This document shows positions 6,077 through 47,099 of a stretch of DNA of 47,111 nt, piece after piece. The stretch is from NCBI GenBank assembly GCA_001778375.1, contig MFGV01000010.1, forward strand, positions 1 to 47,111, in the 5' to 3' direction. Source of the stretch: Candidatus Firestonebacteria bacterium RIFOXYD2_FULL_39_29 (GTDB lineage Bacteria; Oederibacteriota; D2-FULL-39-29). The translations under genes were made by a program, and so were the position numbers. Position 1 is the first letter of the stretch. Each line of letters opens with the position of its first letter. Below the pieces are notes generated by a model. The model was not told the DNA's origin, did no database searches, and saw only the letters and a program-made list of their open reading frames with translations.

Positions 6077-8722
6077 CTATTCCTCAACTACGACGCCTTC
6101 CATTTCAGCAACCAGATCTGTTATCATCTTCGAAAATGCCTGAGTATAAGAAGAACCGGGGTCTGTTGCAAGGTATACAGATAAATTATCAAGAAACTTT
6201 TCAGCATTGTCATATTTACTGAGTATCCTGTAATTTGTCAGATAAATATTCATCGGCATATGCTGAGGGGGGGTCCTTCTGAAACTATTTGCATATATAA
6301 CTCTGGCGCTGCTCGAATTAAGAACTTCATCTGAAAGTTTTTTTGTCAGCGCATCCGCTACGACATTACTATCAATGCAATGATAAAGACTTCCAACAAT
6401 AGTTGGCGCAGTCGCATAAAGACCTGTATTATAGTTATTGGTGTTAAACTCCGGACGGAATCCGCTAGCCATACCAAGCATTCCCAATCTGTCAGAATCA
6501 GAAGTCGATACGGGAGGCGGTTCTCTTAAAGAATGATATATCGCAACTTTATTTAATGTAACGCTGGCTCCTATGCCCGGGAAAAACATACTGCTTGGCG
6601 TTGTTCCGGAGACCCCCAGCGAAAAATCATAAAAAAGAATTCCGCTGGTAATTATACCAACAGGATTTGCATCTTTCGAATCTTCAACAAGGTTTGGATC
6701 TTTTGGAATCCACCACTTACTTATATCATTCGGATCCAGCTGCGCCGCATTTATCGGACCGACATACAAGTCCTTAGTACATACAATAGTAACAGGAACT
6801 TTTGGAGTGCCCCAAACGACCAAAGGAACTTCGGAAAAGATAACACCATACTTTTGCCTGTCTATCGGAATAATACTACTTTTGTATTTTGGATCCCTCG
6901 GACAGTTTGCCTCGGTTATAGTATTTAAATCAAGCTTTACTACCTTCTGTTTATCACTTATCCAGGCTTCAACCCCCTGGGAAACATCAAAATCATGGCT
7001 ATATACAATTTCTATTATATGATCTTTATCAGCATCCAGACACTTTCCACCAGGAATCGAGGAAGAACCAAGTTTTATTGTTCCTGCTGCATAATCAACT
7101 TCATAGTAATGATCAACCGGGTGAGTAACTAAAGTGCTTCCTGTTGCACTCAAATCATTATCCGGAGCTTGAGTCCATAAAAACTCGCTTGCCCCCCCGA
7201 CATCATATACCAAAACCGGATGCTGGCTGGGTTCATTTACTATCCCTTTTCCTATTGGATACCCCATAAGCGCAAGAGGACTTATGACTTTGTTTTGCAC
7301 CGATAAGACAGTTGCGCCTGATAAGACTGTTGCGCCTACTGAATGGCCTGGGATGCCTCTTTGTTTCCTGCCTCTCCAATCATTTGGGGAAGCAGTTCCC
7401 CAATAACCCGGAGGGGATTTAAACTCAAAGGTATCTATAAACGTAGGAAAATTTAGTTTAATCTTTTTGCCTGACCTGTCAATCGTAAAACTGTTATACG
7501 TCCCCTGTACAGGCCCAACCGGTCCGAGAAAAACACTCCGTGTGGCTTTTAATTTCAAAAACAAAAGCTTGATATAATTCATATCTCTTTCAGCCGGTAC
7601 CGGTATATCCGCGCCGTTCAGACCAAAATTTACACTATCTGCTATCTTCTCCCTGTGCGGTGCGTCTTCGGCGGTGCCAATACCATATCCGCCTCCAACG
7701 ACACCCCCTGCTCCGTAAGGGTCAATTGTATACATCATTTCATTTGTAATATTCGCAACCGTACCTTTCGGATTATCCCAGGTAATATTCCAATCCGGAT
7801 CTATGACACTCCTATAACTGTCATACGTTATTTCGTTTACTTTGGGAAGTTTAATCTCCCTGCCGCCGGTATCTTTGTCATCTATCAGGTTGTATTCATA
7901 CTTACTTCCATCCGCTCTTTCCTTTTTTACTACCAGGTCGTCACCAAATTGATTTGCATTATATGGCCATATCGCGCCATGTGTCGAAATCCATCCGGGC
8001 CAGCCGCCTGATTGCGGACCTACAGGAGTAACATAATATTTAGCCGTATAATTACTAATATCAAATAAAAATGGTACCGGTATTGTACCTTCTCCAACCA
8101 TTAAAAAATTATCAATAGAGTCAGGCTCCGAATGACCAGGAGTCCAATCCGCAGCATTGTAAAGTTTGCCTGAAACTTCCAGGGCCGGACCGTATTCATC
8201 TTTTGATTTAACAAAAAATTCATTACCCCAGGATCTTCCGATTATACAATCACCATTAACATGTACAGGACCCGCAAACGGTGTTCTATAATATGGACGG
8301 GTAACTCCGATATCACTGAAATGCAGATAGTCTGTCGAGGTATTCATCGAAACTTCCGCTATCAGCGCATATTTTGAAATATTCGTTACATCCGTACTTT
8401 CAAGCGGATATTGACCTACCGATACAGCTAAGGTATTATGATAACCGCGTCCTATAAGTGTCGCGCTTCCTACTCTGTACTTACCCCCTCCAAATTCCTT
8501 TTCACCGCTATACTGTTCGTAAAGATTATAGTATTGTCTCAAATTATATATTAATTCCGCGATACCTGCTTTTGCTATCCAGAATGCTTTTTGCCTTTCA
8601 CTGTCTTTTTGCAGCAATTTAATATTCCCAACAGTCATTGTAAGGAATATTCCCCCCAATAACGTTACCACCGTAAGCAAAAACATTGACAAAATCAAAA
8701 TCGAACCTTTTCGTTTACTCAT
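6077..8722 (-). CDS. PilX-like type IV pilus / type II secretion minor pilin-like protein, very large
   Basis: 881 residues starting MSKRKGSILILSMFLLTVVT. The positively charged N-terminus and single hydrophobic helix (about residues 6-30), then KLLQKDSERQKAFWIAKAGIAEL, match the PilX_N/pseudopilin-like group, where membrane-associated helices precede an 'AFWIAKAGIAEL'-type segment. The remainder is a long extracytoplasmic region rich in beta-strand and Gly/Pro, without recognised catalytic motifs. Ordinary PilX proteins are under 250 residues; this resembles the large adhesin-bearing PilX/DUF4900-like proteins of uncultivated diderms. It has a perfect-spacing promoter at 8798-8826 and a GAGG ribosome site. 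The two tad genes upstream are on the same strand and may supply a pilus or secretion platform, but no pilin, ATPase or secretin gene is present. Confidence 0.65.
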   Translation of the reverse strand: MSKRKGSILILSMFLLTVVTLLGGIFLTMTVGNIKLLQKDSERQKAFWIAKAGIAELIYNLRQYYNLYEQYSGEKEFGGGKYRVGSATLIGRGYHNTLAVSVGQYPLESTDVTNISKYALIAEVSMNTSTDYLHFSDIGVTRPYYRTPFAGPVHVNGDCIIGRSWGNEFFVKSKDEYGPALEVSGKLYNAADWTPGHSEPDSIDNFLMVGEGTIPVPFLFDISNYTAKYYVTPVGPQSGGWPGWISTHGAIWPYNANQFGDDLVVKKERADGSKYEYNLIDDKDTGGREIKLPKVNEITYDSYRSVIDPDWNITWDNPKGTVANITNEMMYTIDPYGAGGVVGGGYGIGTAEDAPHREKIADSVNFGLNGADIPVPAERDMNYIKLLFLKLKATRSVFLGPVGPVQGTYNSFTIDRSGKKIKLNFPTFIDTFEFKSPPGYWGTASPNDWRGRKQRGIPGHSVGATVLSGATVLSVQNKVISPLALMGYPIGKGIVNEPSQHPVLVYDVGGASEFLWTQAPDNDLSATGSTLVTHPVDHYYEVDYAAGTIKLGSSSIPGGKCLDADKDHIIEIVYSHDFDVSQGVEAWISDKQKVVKLDLNTITEANCPRDPKYKSSIIPIDRQKYGVIFSEVPLVVWGTPKVPVTIVCTKDLYVGPINAAQLDPNDISKWWIPKDPNLVEDSKDANPVGIITSGILFYDFSLGVSGTTPSSMFFPGIGASVTLNKVAIYHSLREPPPVSTSDSDRLGMLGMASGFRPEFNTNNYNTGLYATAPTIVGSLYHCIDSNVVADALTKKLSDEVLNSSSARVIYANSFRRTPPQHMPMNIYLTNYRILSKYDNAEKFLDNLSVYLATDPGSSYTQAFSKMITDLVAEMEGVVVEE

Positions 8723-8797
8723 ATTACCTCACTGAATCAAAAAAATAACAAGCCGGCTTTAATAATACATGCCGGAACAGCTTATATTTCTTTATTT

Positions 8798-8826
8798 ATT
8801 ATATATCGGATTTATGTCATTGTCAA
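8798..8826 (-). promoter_or_regulatory. Consensus sigma70 promoter of the PilX-like gene
   Basis: TTGACA (8821-8826), 17-nt spacer, TATAAT (8798-8803) on the minus strand: both boxes are perfect. The roughly 75-nt leader holds a weak CCGGC/GCCGG hairpin followed by a T-rich run, so attenuation is possible but the stem is short. Confidence 0.75.
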
Positions 8827-17364: not shown

Positions 17365-18003
17365 TTAAAGTAACGTCTTTTGTGTTTTGTTATTTTCACT
17401 TGCCTTTTTAAGTTCTTTTAGATTCTTTCTGCCTTTATCCGTAAGAACACCCTGAAACATCATGGTAATTATTACATCAAATACTTCTCCGACGCTGTAT
17501 TCCATCTCGGAAAGCACTTGAGGGTTTATGACATTTTCAATTGCTGCAAGATAAATAATAATAACAAGTTTTTTGTCCAGGTCTGACCTTATTACTCCAC
17601 TCTCAATACCTTCATCAACAACTTGTGTAAAATACTTAAGTACAAGATTCTTTCTCTTAGCACTGACCTCTTCCCAAAGTTCAGGAGCATTTTTTTTCAT
17701 ATCGCGGATAAAGACAGGCGTAATCTTTAAAGTACTTGCTATCAGGGTTTCACTTAGCCTCTTAAATCTTTCCATTAAGGGTGTCTTTCTGTCTGCAAGT
17801 ATTTTTGAAACTTTTGCTTCTGTCATATTTATTTGAGAAAATATTGCAACGCGCAGCAGGGTCTTTTTATCCGTGAATATTTTATAAAATGTCTTCTTGC
17901 TCATTCCAAATTCCGAGGAAATATCCTCCACTGTCGTACCGGAAAACCCGGAAGAAAGGAAAAGCTCTCTGGAAATATTGATTATTTTCTCTTTAATATT
18001 CAC
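17365..18003 (-). CDS. TetR-family repressor of the efflux operon
   Basis: 212 residues from GTG at 18003 behind GGAG (7 nt). The N-terminal helix-turn-helix is typical of TetR: ISRELFLSSGFSGTTVEDIS then SEFGMSKKTFYKIFTDKKTL. The C-terminal ligand-binding half is helical and divergent (RFKRLSETLIASTLKITPVF; VVDEGIESGVIRSDLDKKLV). It is the first gene of the operon, with its own strong promoter and a 28-bp dyad right after the -10 box. The simplest model is autorepression plus control of the whole pump, relieved by a pump substrate. Confidence 0.92.
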   Translation of the reverse strand: MNIKEKIINISRELFLSSGFSGTTVEDISSEFGMSKKTFYKIFTDKKTLLRVAIFSQINMTEAKVSKILADRKTPLMERFKRLSETLIASTLKITPVFIRDMKKNAPELWEEVSAKRKNLVLKYFTQVVDEGIESGVIRSDLDKKLVIIIYLAAIENVINPQVLSEMEYSVGEVFDVIITMMFQGVLTDKGRKNLKELKKASENNKTQKTLL

Positions 18004-18014
18004 TTGTACACTCC

Positions 18015-18071
18015 GGAAACTATATCGGTACTCCTAGTTTCCATTATAACAAGAGTTGCTCTTTTTGTCAA
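18015..18071 (-). promoter_or_regulatory. Consensus promoter plus TetR operator of the efflux operon
   Basis: TTGACA (18066-18071), 17-nt spacer, TATAAT (18043-18048), both perfect. Starting at the base after the -10 box is an inverted repeat with GGAAACTA (as read on the minus strand, 18035-18042) and TAGTTTCC (18015-18022) arms separated by 12 nt. It covers the start site and early transcribed region, the usual place for a TetR operator. The spacer itself holds a smaller AAGAG/CTCTT dyad. Confidence 0.8.
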
Positions 18072-41327: not shown

Positions 41328-41681
41328 CTAATTGCTCCTTTGGAGCTTATTTCGTAAAGCATTTATTCTTCTACCAAGTACAAATATTTTTTCCCTTAAC
41401 AATTTATCCTCCTGGATAAACCCAAGCACTTCACAAATAGACAGTATTGCTTCAACTTCAGATAATGAACCATTCGCTATTACAAGAAAGTTGCTAAAAT
41501 CTTTTGCTGTTTTCCTGCTTTTTCCCTCTGCGATGTTCAACGCAACTGATACTATTGACCGCTTCAATTGCTGCTTTAAATTATATTCTTCATTTTTCGG
41601 TAGTAAATCTGCAACTTTGTATACATCTTTAATCAAAGAAACACTTTCCTGCCAAATTTCCAGCTCTTTATACATATTCAT
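41328..41681 (-). CDS. Four-helix bundle protein (S23/IVP family, Avd-like fold)
   Basis: 117 residues. YKELEIWQESVSLIKDVYKV is the start typical of the 23S-rRNA intervening-sequence protein family; QQLKRSIVSVALNIAEGKSR then FLVIANGSLSEVEAILSICE covers helices 2-4. Proteins of this fold are often found in intergenic or rRNA-insert sites and are related to Avd, the accessory protein of diversity-generating retroelements. No reverse transcriptase or template repeat was seen. It lies between the initiating transferase and rfbG, stop one base before the rfbG start and containing the AGGAG that starts rfbG. Function in this operon is unknown. Confidence 0.85.
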   Translation of the reverse strand: MNMYKELEIWQESVSLIKDVYKVADLLPKNEEYNLKQQLKRSIVSVALNIAEGKSRKTAKDFSNFLVIANGSLSEVEAILSICEVLGFIQEDKLLREKIFVLGRRINALRNKLQRSN

Positions 41682-43279: not shown

Positions 43280-43666
43280 TTAATATATTATTATATCCGG
43301 AATCATTCGAAAATGCTTGATATTTTCAGTTACCAATACAAGACCATGAATATTGCAGGTAGCAGCAATTAATATATCAGCAAGTCCAAGAGAATTAATA
43401 ATATTTTTATCCCTTGCGTAATCAGCGGCTTTTTTTGCTATTTCAGAACTTATTTGAATCCTGCCAAAGAATGAAAGACTTTTTTCCAATGCTGCAATTT
43501 GATTTTCATTGTGTATTCCCCTGAAAAGCTCATATTCATTAATAACACTTATGTATATATACTCCGTTTCGTTTACTACCGCAGATAATTTATTGCTTCC
43601 TGCCTTTAATTGGTTTATCAAAACATCGGTATCAATAAGGTATTTTCTTTCTTTCCGTGTACTCAT
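43280..43666 (-). CDS. vapC: PIN-domain toxin, VapC family
   Basis: 128 residues. YLIDTDVLINQL holds acidic residues D12/D14, E44/E46 lie in INEYELFRG, D97 is in LGLADILIAA, and the C-terminal segment VTENIKHFRMI matches the end of PIN domains. VapC proteins are Mg-dependent RNases that cleave tRNA or rRNA when unopposed. GGGGG precedes ATG. Its partner is the CopG/RHH-type gene upstream, but the two are separated by 91 nt containing a repeat block instead of the usual overlap. Confidence 0.88.
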   Translation of the reverse strand: MSTRKERKYLIDTDVLINQLKAGSNKLSAVVNETEYIYISVINEYELFRGIHNENQIAALEKSLSFFGRIQISSEIAKKAADYARDKNIINSLGLADILIAATCNIHGLVLVTENIKHFRMIPDIIIY

Positions 43667-43723
43667 TTCTTATTCCCCCTGCCAATCAATTAAAAAAAAC
43701 CTATCTTTTCCGTTTTTCTTTCT

Positions 43724-43768
43724 TGCCAAGCCTCTGAGCCTCCGACCATCCACGCATCTATCTGCCTC
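43724..43768 (-). repeat. GAGGCTCAGAGGC/GGATGGTC block between antitoxin and toxin
   Basis: The minus strand reads GATAGATGCGTGGATGGTCG then GAGGCTCAGAGGCTTGGCAA. The words are shared with 10682-10731 and 36479-36562. It begins inside the 3' end of the antitoxin gene (NRGR-stop) and fills much of the gap to vapC. Confidence 0.65.
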
Positions 43769-44003
43769 TGTTCATCCCTTTATTTGATTCTTCACGGACA
43801 TTATCTATCCCGGTATCCGCAAACAGACCTTTCATATATTTTGTTGCCTCTTTTATATTTTTGGGACCGCTTTTGTATCTTCCTATAAGCTCATGCACAG
43901 CTTCTTTGATAATCCCGGACTGGGATTTTGACATAGCATGAGCCACAGCTTCAAGCTGTTTCTTTTCATCTTCATCGAAAGTAATTGTCAACCCTTTTCT
44001 CAT
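43758..44003 (-). CDS. Ribbon-helix-helix antitoxin of the VapBC module
   Basis: 81 residues. The N-terminal RHH fold is LTITFDEDEKKQLEAVAHAM then SKSQSGIIKEAVHELI. The C-terminal tail IKEATKYMKGLFADTGIDNV would wrap the VapC toxin. GGAGG precedes ATG. The protein ends SNKGMNRGR; those last residues overlap the repeat block, so the native C-terminus may have been altered. A palindromic operator and consensus promoter lie upstream, as expected for autoregulation by the toxin-antitoxin complex. Confidence 0.85.
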   Translation of the reverse strand: MRKGLTITFDEDEKKQLEAVAHAMSKSQSGIIKEAVHELIGRYKSGPKNIKEATKYMKGLFADTGIDNVREESNKGMNRGR

Positions 44004-44028
44004 ATACCCTCCATAATAGTACTTTCTT

Positions 44029-44062
44029 ATACTATTATAGTATATTATTATAGTAATGTCAA
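44029..44062 (-). promoter_or_regulatory. Consensus promoter and palindromic operator of the vapBC-like module
   Basis: TTGACA (44057-44062), 17-nt spacer, TATAAT (44034-44039). A perfect 15-bp palindrome ATACTATAATAGTAT (minus-strand reading, 44029-44043) covers the -10 box, with related ACTATAATA and TACTATTAT words on both sides, suggesting several binding sites for the RHH protein. Confidence 0.75.
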
Positions 44063-45301: not shown

Positions 45302-46585
45302 TTATTTTTTTAGAATATATTTATTTACGCCTTCGTAACCTTCCTTCATCAAGTCCCCGGCTTTAAGATATGTTATCTTATATTTTACGCCGCCGGCTTC
45401 AGCTTCGACATCAACAGATTTATTTAAATTAATAACAAAAAGGTTGTCGCAATCTAAAGTTTTTGAAGCCCACACCAAGCCCTTTATTTCCCTTTCTTCC
45501 GCAGTCTTATTGCTTAAGTCATAGCATACCTGAATCAATGCAACTACTTTATTCGCTTTCTTTAAAACAAAATCTACTTCATGCTTGTTTTCACTTTTCC
45601 AAAAGAAAACCTCAAACATGCTCTCGTATTCACATCTTTTAAAATATGAAGCAATTGTATTTTCCAGGAGTTTCCCGGAATCGCGACTGATTGAGAATCC
45701 TTTTGCCGCAATAAAACCGTTATCAAAAGAGTATATTTTTTTGTTTGACTGAATTTGTTCCTTCACCTTAAAAGAATATTTTGGAAGAGTAAACAGGATA
45801 AGAGCTTCCTCAAGATAGTCAATATATCTTGCTATAGTATTTTTGCTTTTTATTTCCAGAGTTTTAGCGATATTTCGCGAAGAATACTCTGACGACACAT
45901 TCGAGAGCAGATAATATGTCAGTTCTTCTATAGTTTTTGAGTAGCGAATTTTAAATCTTTTAATAATATCCTTATAAATTATTGACTCAAGCAGAGTCCC
46001 CAGATAATTTTTTAAATCTAATCCTGACAAAACCGGTTCAGGGTATCCGCCTTTATGTAAGAATTGATCCAAATATTCTTGTGTTTCTGCCTCAGTAAAG
46101 CTCCGGCCATTAATTATTTCCTTGAGGCCAAAGGGAAAAACAAAAACAGAATTATATCTTCCTGTCAGATGAGTGGCTAATTCCGTACCGAGAAGATTGG
46201 CATTACTTCCCGTCAAGACTATTTTATAATTCCGCCGTTGAAGTTTATTGACAAACAGTTCCCAATTCGGCAAATTTTGAATTTCATCAAAAAACAATAT
46301 TTTAGGATCCGCATAAACACTTTTTATCGCTGTAATAATTTCATCATAATTTTCTATTTTAAACAAGCTTTCATCGTCAAAATTTGCGTAACCAAATTTG
46401 CCTTGTTTTAGAAGAGAATGCATGCAAAAATATGACTTTCCTGCCCTTCTTGGACCAATTACAACATTGATAAGCGAAGATTTGAAATCCAGGTTAACGC
46501 CATCCCTTTCAACGTAAACCTTATCCTTATAGGCTTCAAGCTCACTCTTTTGGTTTTGGATAATATCTTTTACCGTATTAGCCAT
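45302..46585 (-). CDS. AAA_14/DUF4143 ATP-binding protein
   Basis: About 427 residues from ATG 46585, chosen because AGGAG lies 4 nt upstream; the frame extends to 46618 but that region is the leader dyad. Walker A GPRRAGKSY (44-52), Walker B ILFFDEIQNLPNWE and a sensor-like VLTGSNANLLGTELATHLTG. The DUF4143 half follows: GGYPEPVLSG, YKDIIKRFKIR, SVSSEYSSRNIAKTLEIKS-like helix-turn-helix, LIFTLPKYSFK-type and FVLKKANKVVALIQVCYDL, including the D and Q-x-K-like nuclease-fold positions. These are widespread, mobile, poorly understood genes. Own consensus promoter and dyads upstream. The start of the message lies within the dyad. Confidence 0.85.
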   Translation of the reverse strand: MANTVKDIIQNQKSELEAYKDKVYVERDGVNLDFKSSLINVVIGPRRAGKSYFCMHSLLKQGKFGYANFDDESLFKIENYDEIITAIKSVYADPKILFFDEIQNLPNWELFVNKLQRRNYKIVLTGSNANLLGTELATHLTGRYNSVFVFPFGLKEIINGRSFTEAETQEYLDQFLHKGGYPEPVLSGLDLKNYLGTLLESIIYKDIIKRFKIRYSKTIEELTYYLLSNVSSEYSSRNIAKTLEIKSKNTIARYIDYLEEALILFTLPKYSFKVKEQIQSNKKIYSFDNGFIAAKGFSISRDSGKLLENTIASYFKRCEYESMFEVFFWKSENKHEVDFVLKKANKVVALIQVCYDLSNKTAEEREIKGLVWASKTLDCDNLFVINLNKSVDVEAEAGGVKYKITYLKAGDLMKEGYEGVNKYILKK

Positions 46586-46599
46586 AATACTCCTATTTT

Positions 46600-46761
46600 G
46601 GCTATTTGCAATAGCCATATTAAAGATTATAACCTAAGTTTAAGTAGTTGTCAATATGCAATATTCAGAATTATTTCTTTCATTGCAACATTTCTATTGG
46701 ACAAAACAAGGCAGGATTTTTCCGATTTTGGCTATTAGATTCATTCATAATAGCCAAAATC
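46600..46761 (-). promoter_or_regulatory. Consensus promoter with leader dyad and upstream matching dyad
   Basis: TTGACA (46649-46654), 17-nt spacer, TATAAT (46626-46631), both perfect. A dyad GGCTATT/AATAGCC (46600-46606, 46610-46616) sits at the expected start site. About 70 nt upstream, a larger dyad has 14-bp arms GATTTTGGCTATTA and its complement (46724-46737, 46748-46761; 10-nt loop). TTTTGGCTATT occurs in both, suggesting one protein binds both sites, or that these are ends of a small mobile element. Confidence 0.65.
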
Positions 46762-47099
46762 CGAATTTCAAAATAACTCATATTACATCTTGTGTTTTCT
46801 TAGGCGGATTTTGCAAAGATTTATGGTATATATTAAAGCTTTGATCAACTGCCTTTACCGACCTCTGTCCTCCGACTTTTTCAGACCTCAGTCTTTTCCA
46901 TCTCCCGCTAAGCAGACGAATTTCAGATTTCGAATTTGATCTTTCCGCCCTCAGGCTCGCCCCCATCCCTTTCTGTTGTTATTTATTGCTTATCACGATA
47001 TGAAAACGATTTGGTTTAAATTATTAGTAATTCAGACTGTGTCGCAATTAAATTACTAACATGATATAATATGGCATATTCACTCCAAAGGAGCAAGCC
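46762..47099. other. Intergenic stretch with repeats; no gene seen
   Basis: Holds short words of another repeat family (GACCTCTGTCCTCCGAC then TTTTTCAGACCTCAGTC, 46859-46893) and a GATTTCGAATTTGATC word near 46925. The right part (47015-47060) has TTAGTAATT and AATTACTAA arms around a CAGACTGTGTCGC centre. No ORF above about 60 codons looks coding here. Confidence 0.5.

Follow-up and report, generated by a model that had tools for sequence, protein, structure and literature searches.

The DUF4143 ATPase gene and its product

We identified two dyads around the consensus promoter of a gene encoding an ATPase with AAA_14 and DUF4143 domains (Table 1). The window referred to throughout is the whole stretch of DNA that was analyzed, 47,111 nucleotides in length. 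The protein is above the Pfam cut-offs for both AAA_14 (E 1.6e-28, 99.7 bits compared with a cut-off of 27) and DUF4143 (E 6.3e-24, 85 bits compared with 28.1), and it matches the PADLOC model for the phage-defence candidate PDC-S01 (1.7e-92). No NCBIfam model matches the protein at E up to 0.001, and no PDB chain was found by phmmer at E up to 0.01. Among the best 60 of 374 matches in a profile search of the PDB, most are AAA parts, with the addition of 2fna and 2qen. An AlphaFold model made from five sequences was poor (pLDDT 60), and the Foldseek matches obtained with it (ORC, MuB, TnsC and others, query TM 0.2–0.3) indicate an AAA+ protein only.

The start codon is most likely the ATG at 46585, as it is preceded by the Shine-Dalgarno (SD) sequence AGGAG and the starts of aligned relatives fall within a few residues of it. 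An alternative leaderless start at 46618 would lengthen the protein from 427 to 438 amino acids. With the start at 46585, the first dyad lies at the predicted transcription start (approximately 46619) and in the leader.

Walker A (GPRRAGKS) and Walker B (FFDEIQ) sequences are present, and residues G44, G49, K50, D100 and E101 are invariant in 30 sequences. The acidic residue of the nuclease motif, D338, is conserved in all 199 aligned proteins. The E-x-K pair of PD-(D/E)XK nucleases, found in 168 of the same 199 proteins, is absent from the window protein, which has Q352-x-C354 at this position. Glutamine comes first in 25 of the 199, and the near relatives listed for the window protein also have glutamine there and no lysine. 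Since Q-x-C replaces the nuclease pair, the subfamily of the window protein may have lost cleavage and kept its operator.

Relatives of the protein occur in its own phylum, in genome_contigs loci and, at E 1e-60, in 13 of 379 genomes of another phylum. Searching viral contigs with the window protein alone gave no relative; a search with the alignment gave four weak ones, and a pattern scan of these contigs gave 120 candidate stretches. Three DUF4143 genes elsewhere (L269, L272 and L274) contain an in-frame TGA where relatives keep a conserved tryptophan, and a fourth (L022, in genome G047) opens to 418 amino acids when TGA is read as tryptophan. The genome carrying L022 may read TGA in this way, or its contigs may be misbinned.

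Table 1. Features of the DUF4143 gene and its upstream region (positions in the window)
Feature	Position	Strand	Remark
AAA_14 and DUF4143 ATPase gene	45302..46585	-	427 aa; start from SD and relatives
Segment with proposed winged helix-turn-helix, residues 199-275	45761..45991	-	relatives' alignment and weak model helices
Half-site match TTTTGGATAATA	46554..46565	+	10/12, within coding sequence
Half-site match TTATGGCTAATA	46576..46587	-	10/12, over start codon
Dyad 1	46595..46622		over predicted +1 and leader; core GGCTATTTGCAATAGCC 46600-46616
Half-site TTTTGGCTATTT	46596..46607	+	11/12
Half-site match ATATGGCTATTG	46609..46620	-	9/12; counts only as dyad 1 arm
Consensus sigma-70-type promoter TTGACA-N17-TATAAT	46626..46654	-	12/12 match
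Family-consensus half-site TTTTGTCCAATA	46695..46706	-	sole copy in 3.0-Mb genome
Dyad 2, upstream putative operator	46720..46765		18-nt arms, 10-nt gap
Half-site TTTTGGCTATTA	46726..46737	+	12/12
Half-site TTTTGGCTATTA	46748..46759	-	12/12

The promoter and the dyads

The original prediction listed three elements: a promoter with the perfect sequence TTGACA-N17-TATAAT, a dyad located at the start site and, 70 nt upstream, a larger one with 14-bp arms and the same core. All of this is borne out. The -35 hexamer occupies 46654-46649 and the -10 hexamer 46631-46626, separated by 17 nt. Perfect promoters with spacers of 16–18 nt occur four times in the window, compared with a mean of 0.05 and a maximum of 1 in 100 whole-window shuffles. 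The nearest edge of dyad 2 is 65–69 nt upstream of the -35 hexamer. Its arms have a single mismatch and the inner 14 positions pair perfectly, for a score of 15 (matches minus 2 per mismatch). This score excludes chance, as 300 shuffles of the region give no score above 12; the dyad is also the strongest in the window among those with a gap of up to approximately 20 nt, the runner-up scoring 11. Dyad 1 scores 8, which is weak taken alone, and it has its arm in common with dyad 2. The sequence TTTTGGCTATT occurs exactly three times in the 47 kb, always in the dyad region.

Of the other three perfect promoters in the window, one lies ahead of a vapBC-type pair and another ahead of a gene for a TetR-type regulator, each with dyads beside the -10 hexamer. 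Such pairs and regulators commonly repress themselves. The pair (43280-44062) consists of an RHH protein of 81 amino acids and a PIN protein of 128, with overlapping TATACTATAATAGTATA-type dyads at its promoter. The TetR-type gene (17365-18071) has a GTG start and a GGAAAC/GTTTCC dyad. The remaining perfect promoter (8722-8826) precedes an 881-amino acid ORF without known self-control. A gene for a 23S rRNA intervening-sequence-type protein (PF05635) is located at 41328-41681, and the translations of its neighbors resemble polysaccharide synthesis genes by eye.

Recurrence within the genome

The original prediction suggested, as one check, a search of the genome for further DUF4143 genes with this dyad, and it named lack of recurrence together with lack of binding as the outcome that would count against it. 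Half of that outcome is what we found, as the exact dyad is absent elsewhere in the genome. The genome has 17 DUF4143 genes, and within its 3,003,844 bases the exact dyad core occurs at the two places in the window only. The reversed pattern likewise occurs at two places, so the count is not above chance and is uninformative alone.

When the 17 upstream regions were read, 10 had a dyad scoring at least 8 between -100 and +60 of the first ATG. The sequences of these dyads are mostly different, and they often adjoin a near-consensus promoter, so we tested the layout instead of the letters. The search for one dyad had presumed a common operator; in our reading the operators are private and it is the layout that recurs. 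High copy numbers of DUF4143 genes are also seen in a genome of 0.9 Mb (G045), where 12 of 14 matches are over the cut-off and five matches share a span of about 27 kb on a single contig (C15).

Recurrence of the layout across the family

The DUF4143 family (PF13635) occurs in at least 36 of 45 genomes of the window's phylum. We added 80 further loci, which were hand-picked among the matches listed and mostly high-scoring, as they were for all phyla surveyed. The complete set gave 156 DUF4143 ORFs, of which 145 were kept after removing ORFs that were open-ended, near a contig edge, overlapping or duplicated. The controls are 810 other ORFs from the same loci, uncurated and with start codons set by rule. 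An upstream gap of at least 80 nt is found for 132 of the 145 DUF4143 genes and for 462 controls, and owing to this free space the 132 genes seem to start their own transcription units. The survey comes nearly all from the window's phylum, with some loci from other phyla and L022 included as a truncated reading. The 132 genes are not independent of the first look, since they include the 17-gene genome that gave the idea and close relatives.

A dyad scoring at least 9 between -100 and +30 is found for 47% of the 132 DUF4143 genes, compared with 11% of the 462 controls, 14% of GC-matched controls and 2% of shuffles (Mann-Whitney p 2e-20). Promoters matching at least 10 of 12 consensus positions precede 64% of the DUF4143 genes and 14% of controls (20% when GC-matched). 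The excess of dyads is limited to the region from about -90 to +14 (42–44% compared with 8–12%), where a dyad may lie over the -35 hexamer, in the spacer, or on the downstream side of the -10 hexamer. About half of the DUF4143 genes are without a strong dyad by the score used.

Two further sets were taken independently of that first look. In the one from a second phylum of bacteria, where PF13635 occurs in at least 51 of 145 genomes and 40 loci were taken, strong dyads precede 17 of 38 DUF4143 genes and 30 of 280 controls (p 1.5e-6; GC-matched 11%). In an archaeal phylum (at least 62 of 147 genomes, 20 loci taken) the corresponding numbers are 9 of 24 and 20 of 154 (p 0.006; GC-matched 12%). 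As expected, sigma-70-like promoters are rare in the archaeal set, with 1 of 24 and 5 of 154.

Other arrangements in the window gene do not extend to the family. Dual operators had been predicted, and the window gene has two putative ones, one of them far upstream. A far-upstream dyad (near -150) is not a family rule, as it is found for 14% of genes compared with 10% of controls, and arm 9-mers recur between -270 and -100 in 42% compared with 38% after shuffling. We also rejected family-wide arrays of many copies, as arm 9-mers recur in the remaining promoter region in 40%, compared with 38% after shuffling. Among exact 8-mers, those repeated directly are slightly enriched at spacings of 22, 32, 33 and 44 bp (3–5% of the 132 genes, 0.2–0.4% of the 462 controls), whereas inverted 8-mers are raised over about 8–36 bp with no single period. 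A spacing rule of 20–22 bp is thus shown for some subfamilies only.

Six plasmid loci (L303–L308), for which there is no control set, have a dyad score of 9 in four cases, 7 in one and no dyad in one. At one of these (L307, Acinetobacter towneri) the gene for a DUF4143-type ATP-binding protein adjoins qatD; at another (L308, Treponema saccharophilum) it is flanked by hsdR and a DNA methyltransferase gene. Many DUF4143 genes have a leaderless look. A distance of 6–11 nt from the end of the -10 hexamer to the start is seen in 35 of 85 DUF4143 promoters and 5 of 65 controls, with L010, L007 and L142 as apparent examples; in the second phylum a -10 hexamer ending 3–11 nt before the start is seen in 6 of 19 and 12 of 49, a small difference.

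Half-sites in the subfamily of the window gene

A motif search was conducted on the upstream regions of 14 relatives of the window protein (33–51% identity), our choice among 26 aligned, with the window gene left out. The 14 include four near pairs (L290/L291, L293/L294, L026/L030 and L027/L028). The search returned the half-site TTTTGTCCAATA with a likelihood of 55.8, compared with 24–29 in 12 shuffled sets. The motif matches 11 of the 14 with at least 10 bits, and L270 more weakly. The learned motif finds no match in L022 or L297 among the 14, and both can be aligned by eye to the half-site of the window; L297, at 33% identity, carries AAAGTGGCTAATA, which is near the window's own variant. 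Half-sites of alternating orientation approximately 20–21 bp apart are found in L293, L294, L026, L030, L027 and L028, with additional weaker matches out of step in L026, L027 and L028. L290 and L291 have a single match each.

The best match of this motif in the window is a perfect consensus located between the two dyads, a score that none of 500 shuffles reaches. The arms of dyad 2 follow with 5.8 bits each, and when their half-site is used for scanning, matches occur at -174, -152, -121, -35, -22, -2 and +20 from the ATG. Those at -22, -2 and +20 alternate in orientation and are spaced 20 and 22 bp apart, like those of the six relatives above. On both strands of the window there are 18 matches of at least 10/12, and five of them are here, including the two that define the half-site. 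At 9/12 or better there are 117, which is uninformative alone, and single half-sites as weak as 9/12 or 10/12 may be chance matches. The window half-site (GGCTA) differs from the subfamily consensus (GTCCA). In our reading the window gene and its subfamily would form one operator family, with the specificity shifted in the window gene.

Putative operator sequences follow protein subfamilies

In the 3.0-Mb genome the single copy of TTTTGTCCAATA compares with five of its reversed pattern. Two paralogs, L011 and L010, have putative operators that each occur once in the genome, at their own gene; in the genome the reversed patterns occur at one place and at none.

We compared the dyad arms of 62 genes with a strong dyad with the regions upstream of other members. 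Up to four 9-mers were sampled per case, and a near-match was counted when their best matches averaged at least 7.75 of 9. Among relatives with 55–90% protein identity, arm 9-mers are near-matched in 68% of 65 pairs and flanking 9-mers in 8%. At 44–55% identity the values are 16% of 235 pairs and 0.4%, and in unrelated pairs arms are near-matched in about 3%. Dyad sequences are common to closer relatives and different between subfamilies. Grouping by protein identity gives operator families which include, among the groups listed, ACTCA-N6-TGAGT in tandem, ACAATTTG[CT]TCA adjoining the -35 hexamer, TTTAACCTG, TTTGCA, and others.

A probable operator for the gene's own product

The original prediction offered self-control or a small mobile unit. 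Comparison of genes supports self-control well, both through the enrichment of dyads and through their sharing among relatives. We consider it likely that the dyads are the operator of the protein itself, and that binding through an internal winged helix represses its own promoter. The window protein would thus probably switch itself off via private sites across that promoter.

In such a mechanism the reader would be the AAA+ ATPase, with the proposed winged helix inside the chain and a PD-(D/E)XK-type domain at the C-terminus. Its half-sites, of about 12 bp, would cover the transcription start, leader and start codon, partly alternating and about two helical turns apart, with the second dyad upstream. 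The protein may bind these as a dimer or a larger assembly and thereby repress a very strong promoter, leaving little protein in the cell. ATP state, damage or an invader could then draw the protein off the DNA. With a strong promoter controlled by its own product, a gene could be kept at a low level and still be induced fast once that product is removed.

The proposed winged helix rests on the alignment of relatives and on a weak model, which place the recognition helix at about residues 248–261. HTH_11 matches the window protein at E 9.5e-4, under its cut-off, and is found in 2 of 14 members; HTH families in general match few of the 14. In a relative on Thermus thermophilus pTT27, two such families, HTH_IclR and HTH_5, score above their cut-offs at the corresponding place (residues 225–261). 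A winged-helix profile gave one weak match in the PDB. Identity in the winged helix predicts operator similarity with a partial correlation of 0.087 (bootstrap interval -0.003 to 0.161), compared with 0.032 for the AAA domain and 0.019 for the nuclease domain, and it exceeds the AAA value in 78% of resamples. This covariation is suggestive only. The strongest argument for the protein as binder, although an indirect one, is the privacy of the operators. As they are private to subfamilies, and to single genes in the three cases checked, the gene's own product would be their natural reader.

The dyads could instead be the operator of a separate repressor, encoded elsewhere and controlling DUF4143 genes. 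Binding by the encoded protein is itself putative and the covariation with its winged helix is weak, which leaves room for such a regulator. However, operator sequence tracks the protein subfamily. One common regulator is unlikely because operators differ between paralogs and the three checked are unique to their own genes, and we regard a separate repressor of any kind as unlikely.

Alternatively the dyads might act in the mRNA, the start-site dyad forming a leader hairpin that shows or hides the SD sequence or stabilizes the message. The sequence TAGCCAAAATAggagTATTATGGCTA can pair with GGAG of the SD in a loop, and 60 nt of this region fold at -11.6 kcal/mol. However, the z-score of -1.5 is weak and 16 of 200 shuffles fold equally well. 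Dyad 2 has the same arm and yet lies upstream of the promoter, where it is untranscribed from it, and the range of dyad positions in the family, over and between the hexamers as well as downstream of them, does not suit a leader structure. We consider an RNA role quite improbable.

REP elements are recognition sequences of their transposases, and the dyads might similarly mark the ends of a small mobile unit or serve as its recognition sequences. Relatives in distant phyla and the 17 DUF4143 genes in one genome would suit this explanation. However, repeat copies at both ends of the gene were not found in the 47-kb window, where the contig ends at 47111, in the genome, or downstream of 65 genes, where arm 9-mers matching at least 8 of 9 occur in 34% compared with 38% after shuffling. 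The window's dyad is also confined to this gene, and the half-site matches do not stop at the start codon but extend into the gene. The predicted mobile unit ending at the dyads is thus not upheld, and we regard it as very improbable. Chance palindromes in AT-rich DNA are just as improbable an explanation and an unlikely cause of the family-wide dyads, for although the mean GC content of DUF4143 regions is 30–37%, GC-matched controls and shuffles are far lower and dyad 2 surpasses all 300 shuffles.

Self-repression through private operators would have consequences beyond this gene. It would explain the many paralogs per genome, which could coexist without cross-talk because their operators are private. 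A private self-operator would also supply a defined DNA ligand and a reporter for derepression, and in this way an unexplained family becomes testable. A wider proposal, which we hold tentatively and regard as somewhat doubtful, is that DUF4143/PDC-S01 proteins of bacteria and archaea combine sensor, repressor and effector in one chain, with private operators that some bind as phased oligomers, and that titration by invader or damaged DNA both arms and induces them. If so, private operators would have evolved anew with the winged helix of each subfamily, allowing a dozen or more paralogs to coexist, and nuclease-dead members such as the window protein would be pure regulators or decoys.

Comparison with known systems

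PMC12988326 describes PDC-S01 as a fusion of an ATPase domain with the PD-(D/E)XK superfamily. The passages available from it place PDC-S01 fourth among the commonest defences of prokaryotes and call most candidates of this type still in need of experimental validation. In rumen genomes PDC-S01 is found more often than any other individual locus, according to passages of PMC13356809. The window protein has the same domains and differs in being without the E-x-K pair; an anti-phage role is a candidate function, suggested by its PADLOC match and PMC12988326. The passages considered from PMC4406477, PMC12988326 and PMC13356809 mention no operator of DUF4143/PDC-S01 genes, and those considered on PDC-S01 describe no regulation.

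PMC4406477 reports that a DUF4143 gene of T. thermophilus HB27, TT_P0211, is 6.6-fold up in cells with Argonaute and a plasmid compared with no plasmid, and that in a strain without Argonaute no gene changes more than 4-fold. This induction fits the proposed mechanism. On the pTT27 stretch, TT_RS11170 is annotated as an ATP-binding protein and has both domains; from position and domains we infer that it is TT_P0211. Upstream of it, TGCCATCTC-N5-GAGATGGCA adjoins a -35-like TTGTCT, and a -10-like TATCAT (promoter 9/12) ends 6 nt before the ATG.

Among defence systems, AbiE has a winged-helix antitoxin, AbiEi, that represses its own operon via inverted repeats at the promoter. The proposed control of the window gene would be alike in its putative winged helix and its inverted repeats. 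However, AbiE is a two-gene toxin-antitoxin system, whereas here the regulator, ATPase and nuclease-type domain would be in one protein. DnaA is an AAA+ protein with a helix-turn-helix that binds several short sites lined up at the promoter of its own gene, as proposed for the window protein. DnaA boxes are shared genome-wide, whereas the sites in the window are private. CapW/BrxR, RptR and restriction controller proteins hold defence genes at a low level by repression. Each is a protein of its own, next to the effector, in contrast to the single protein proposed here. Autoregulated defence-type genes are a known kind, and the window gene would be a variant of it.
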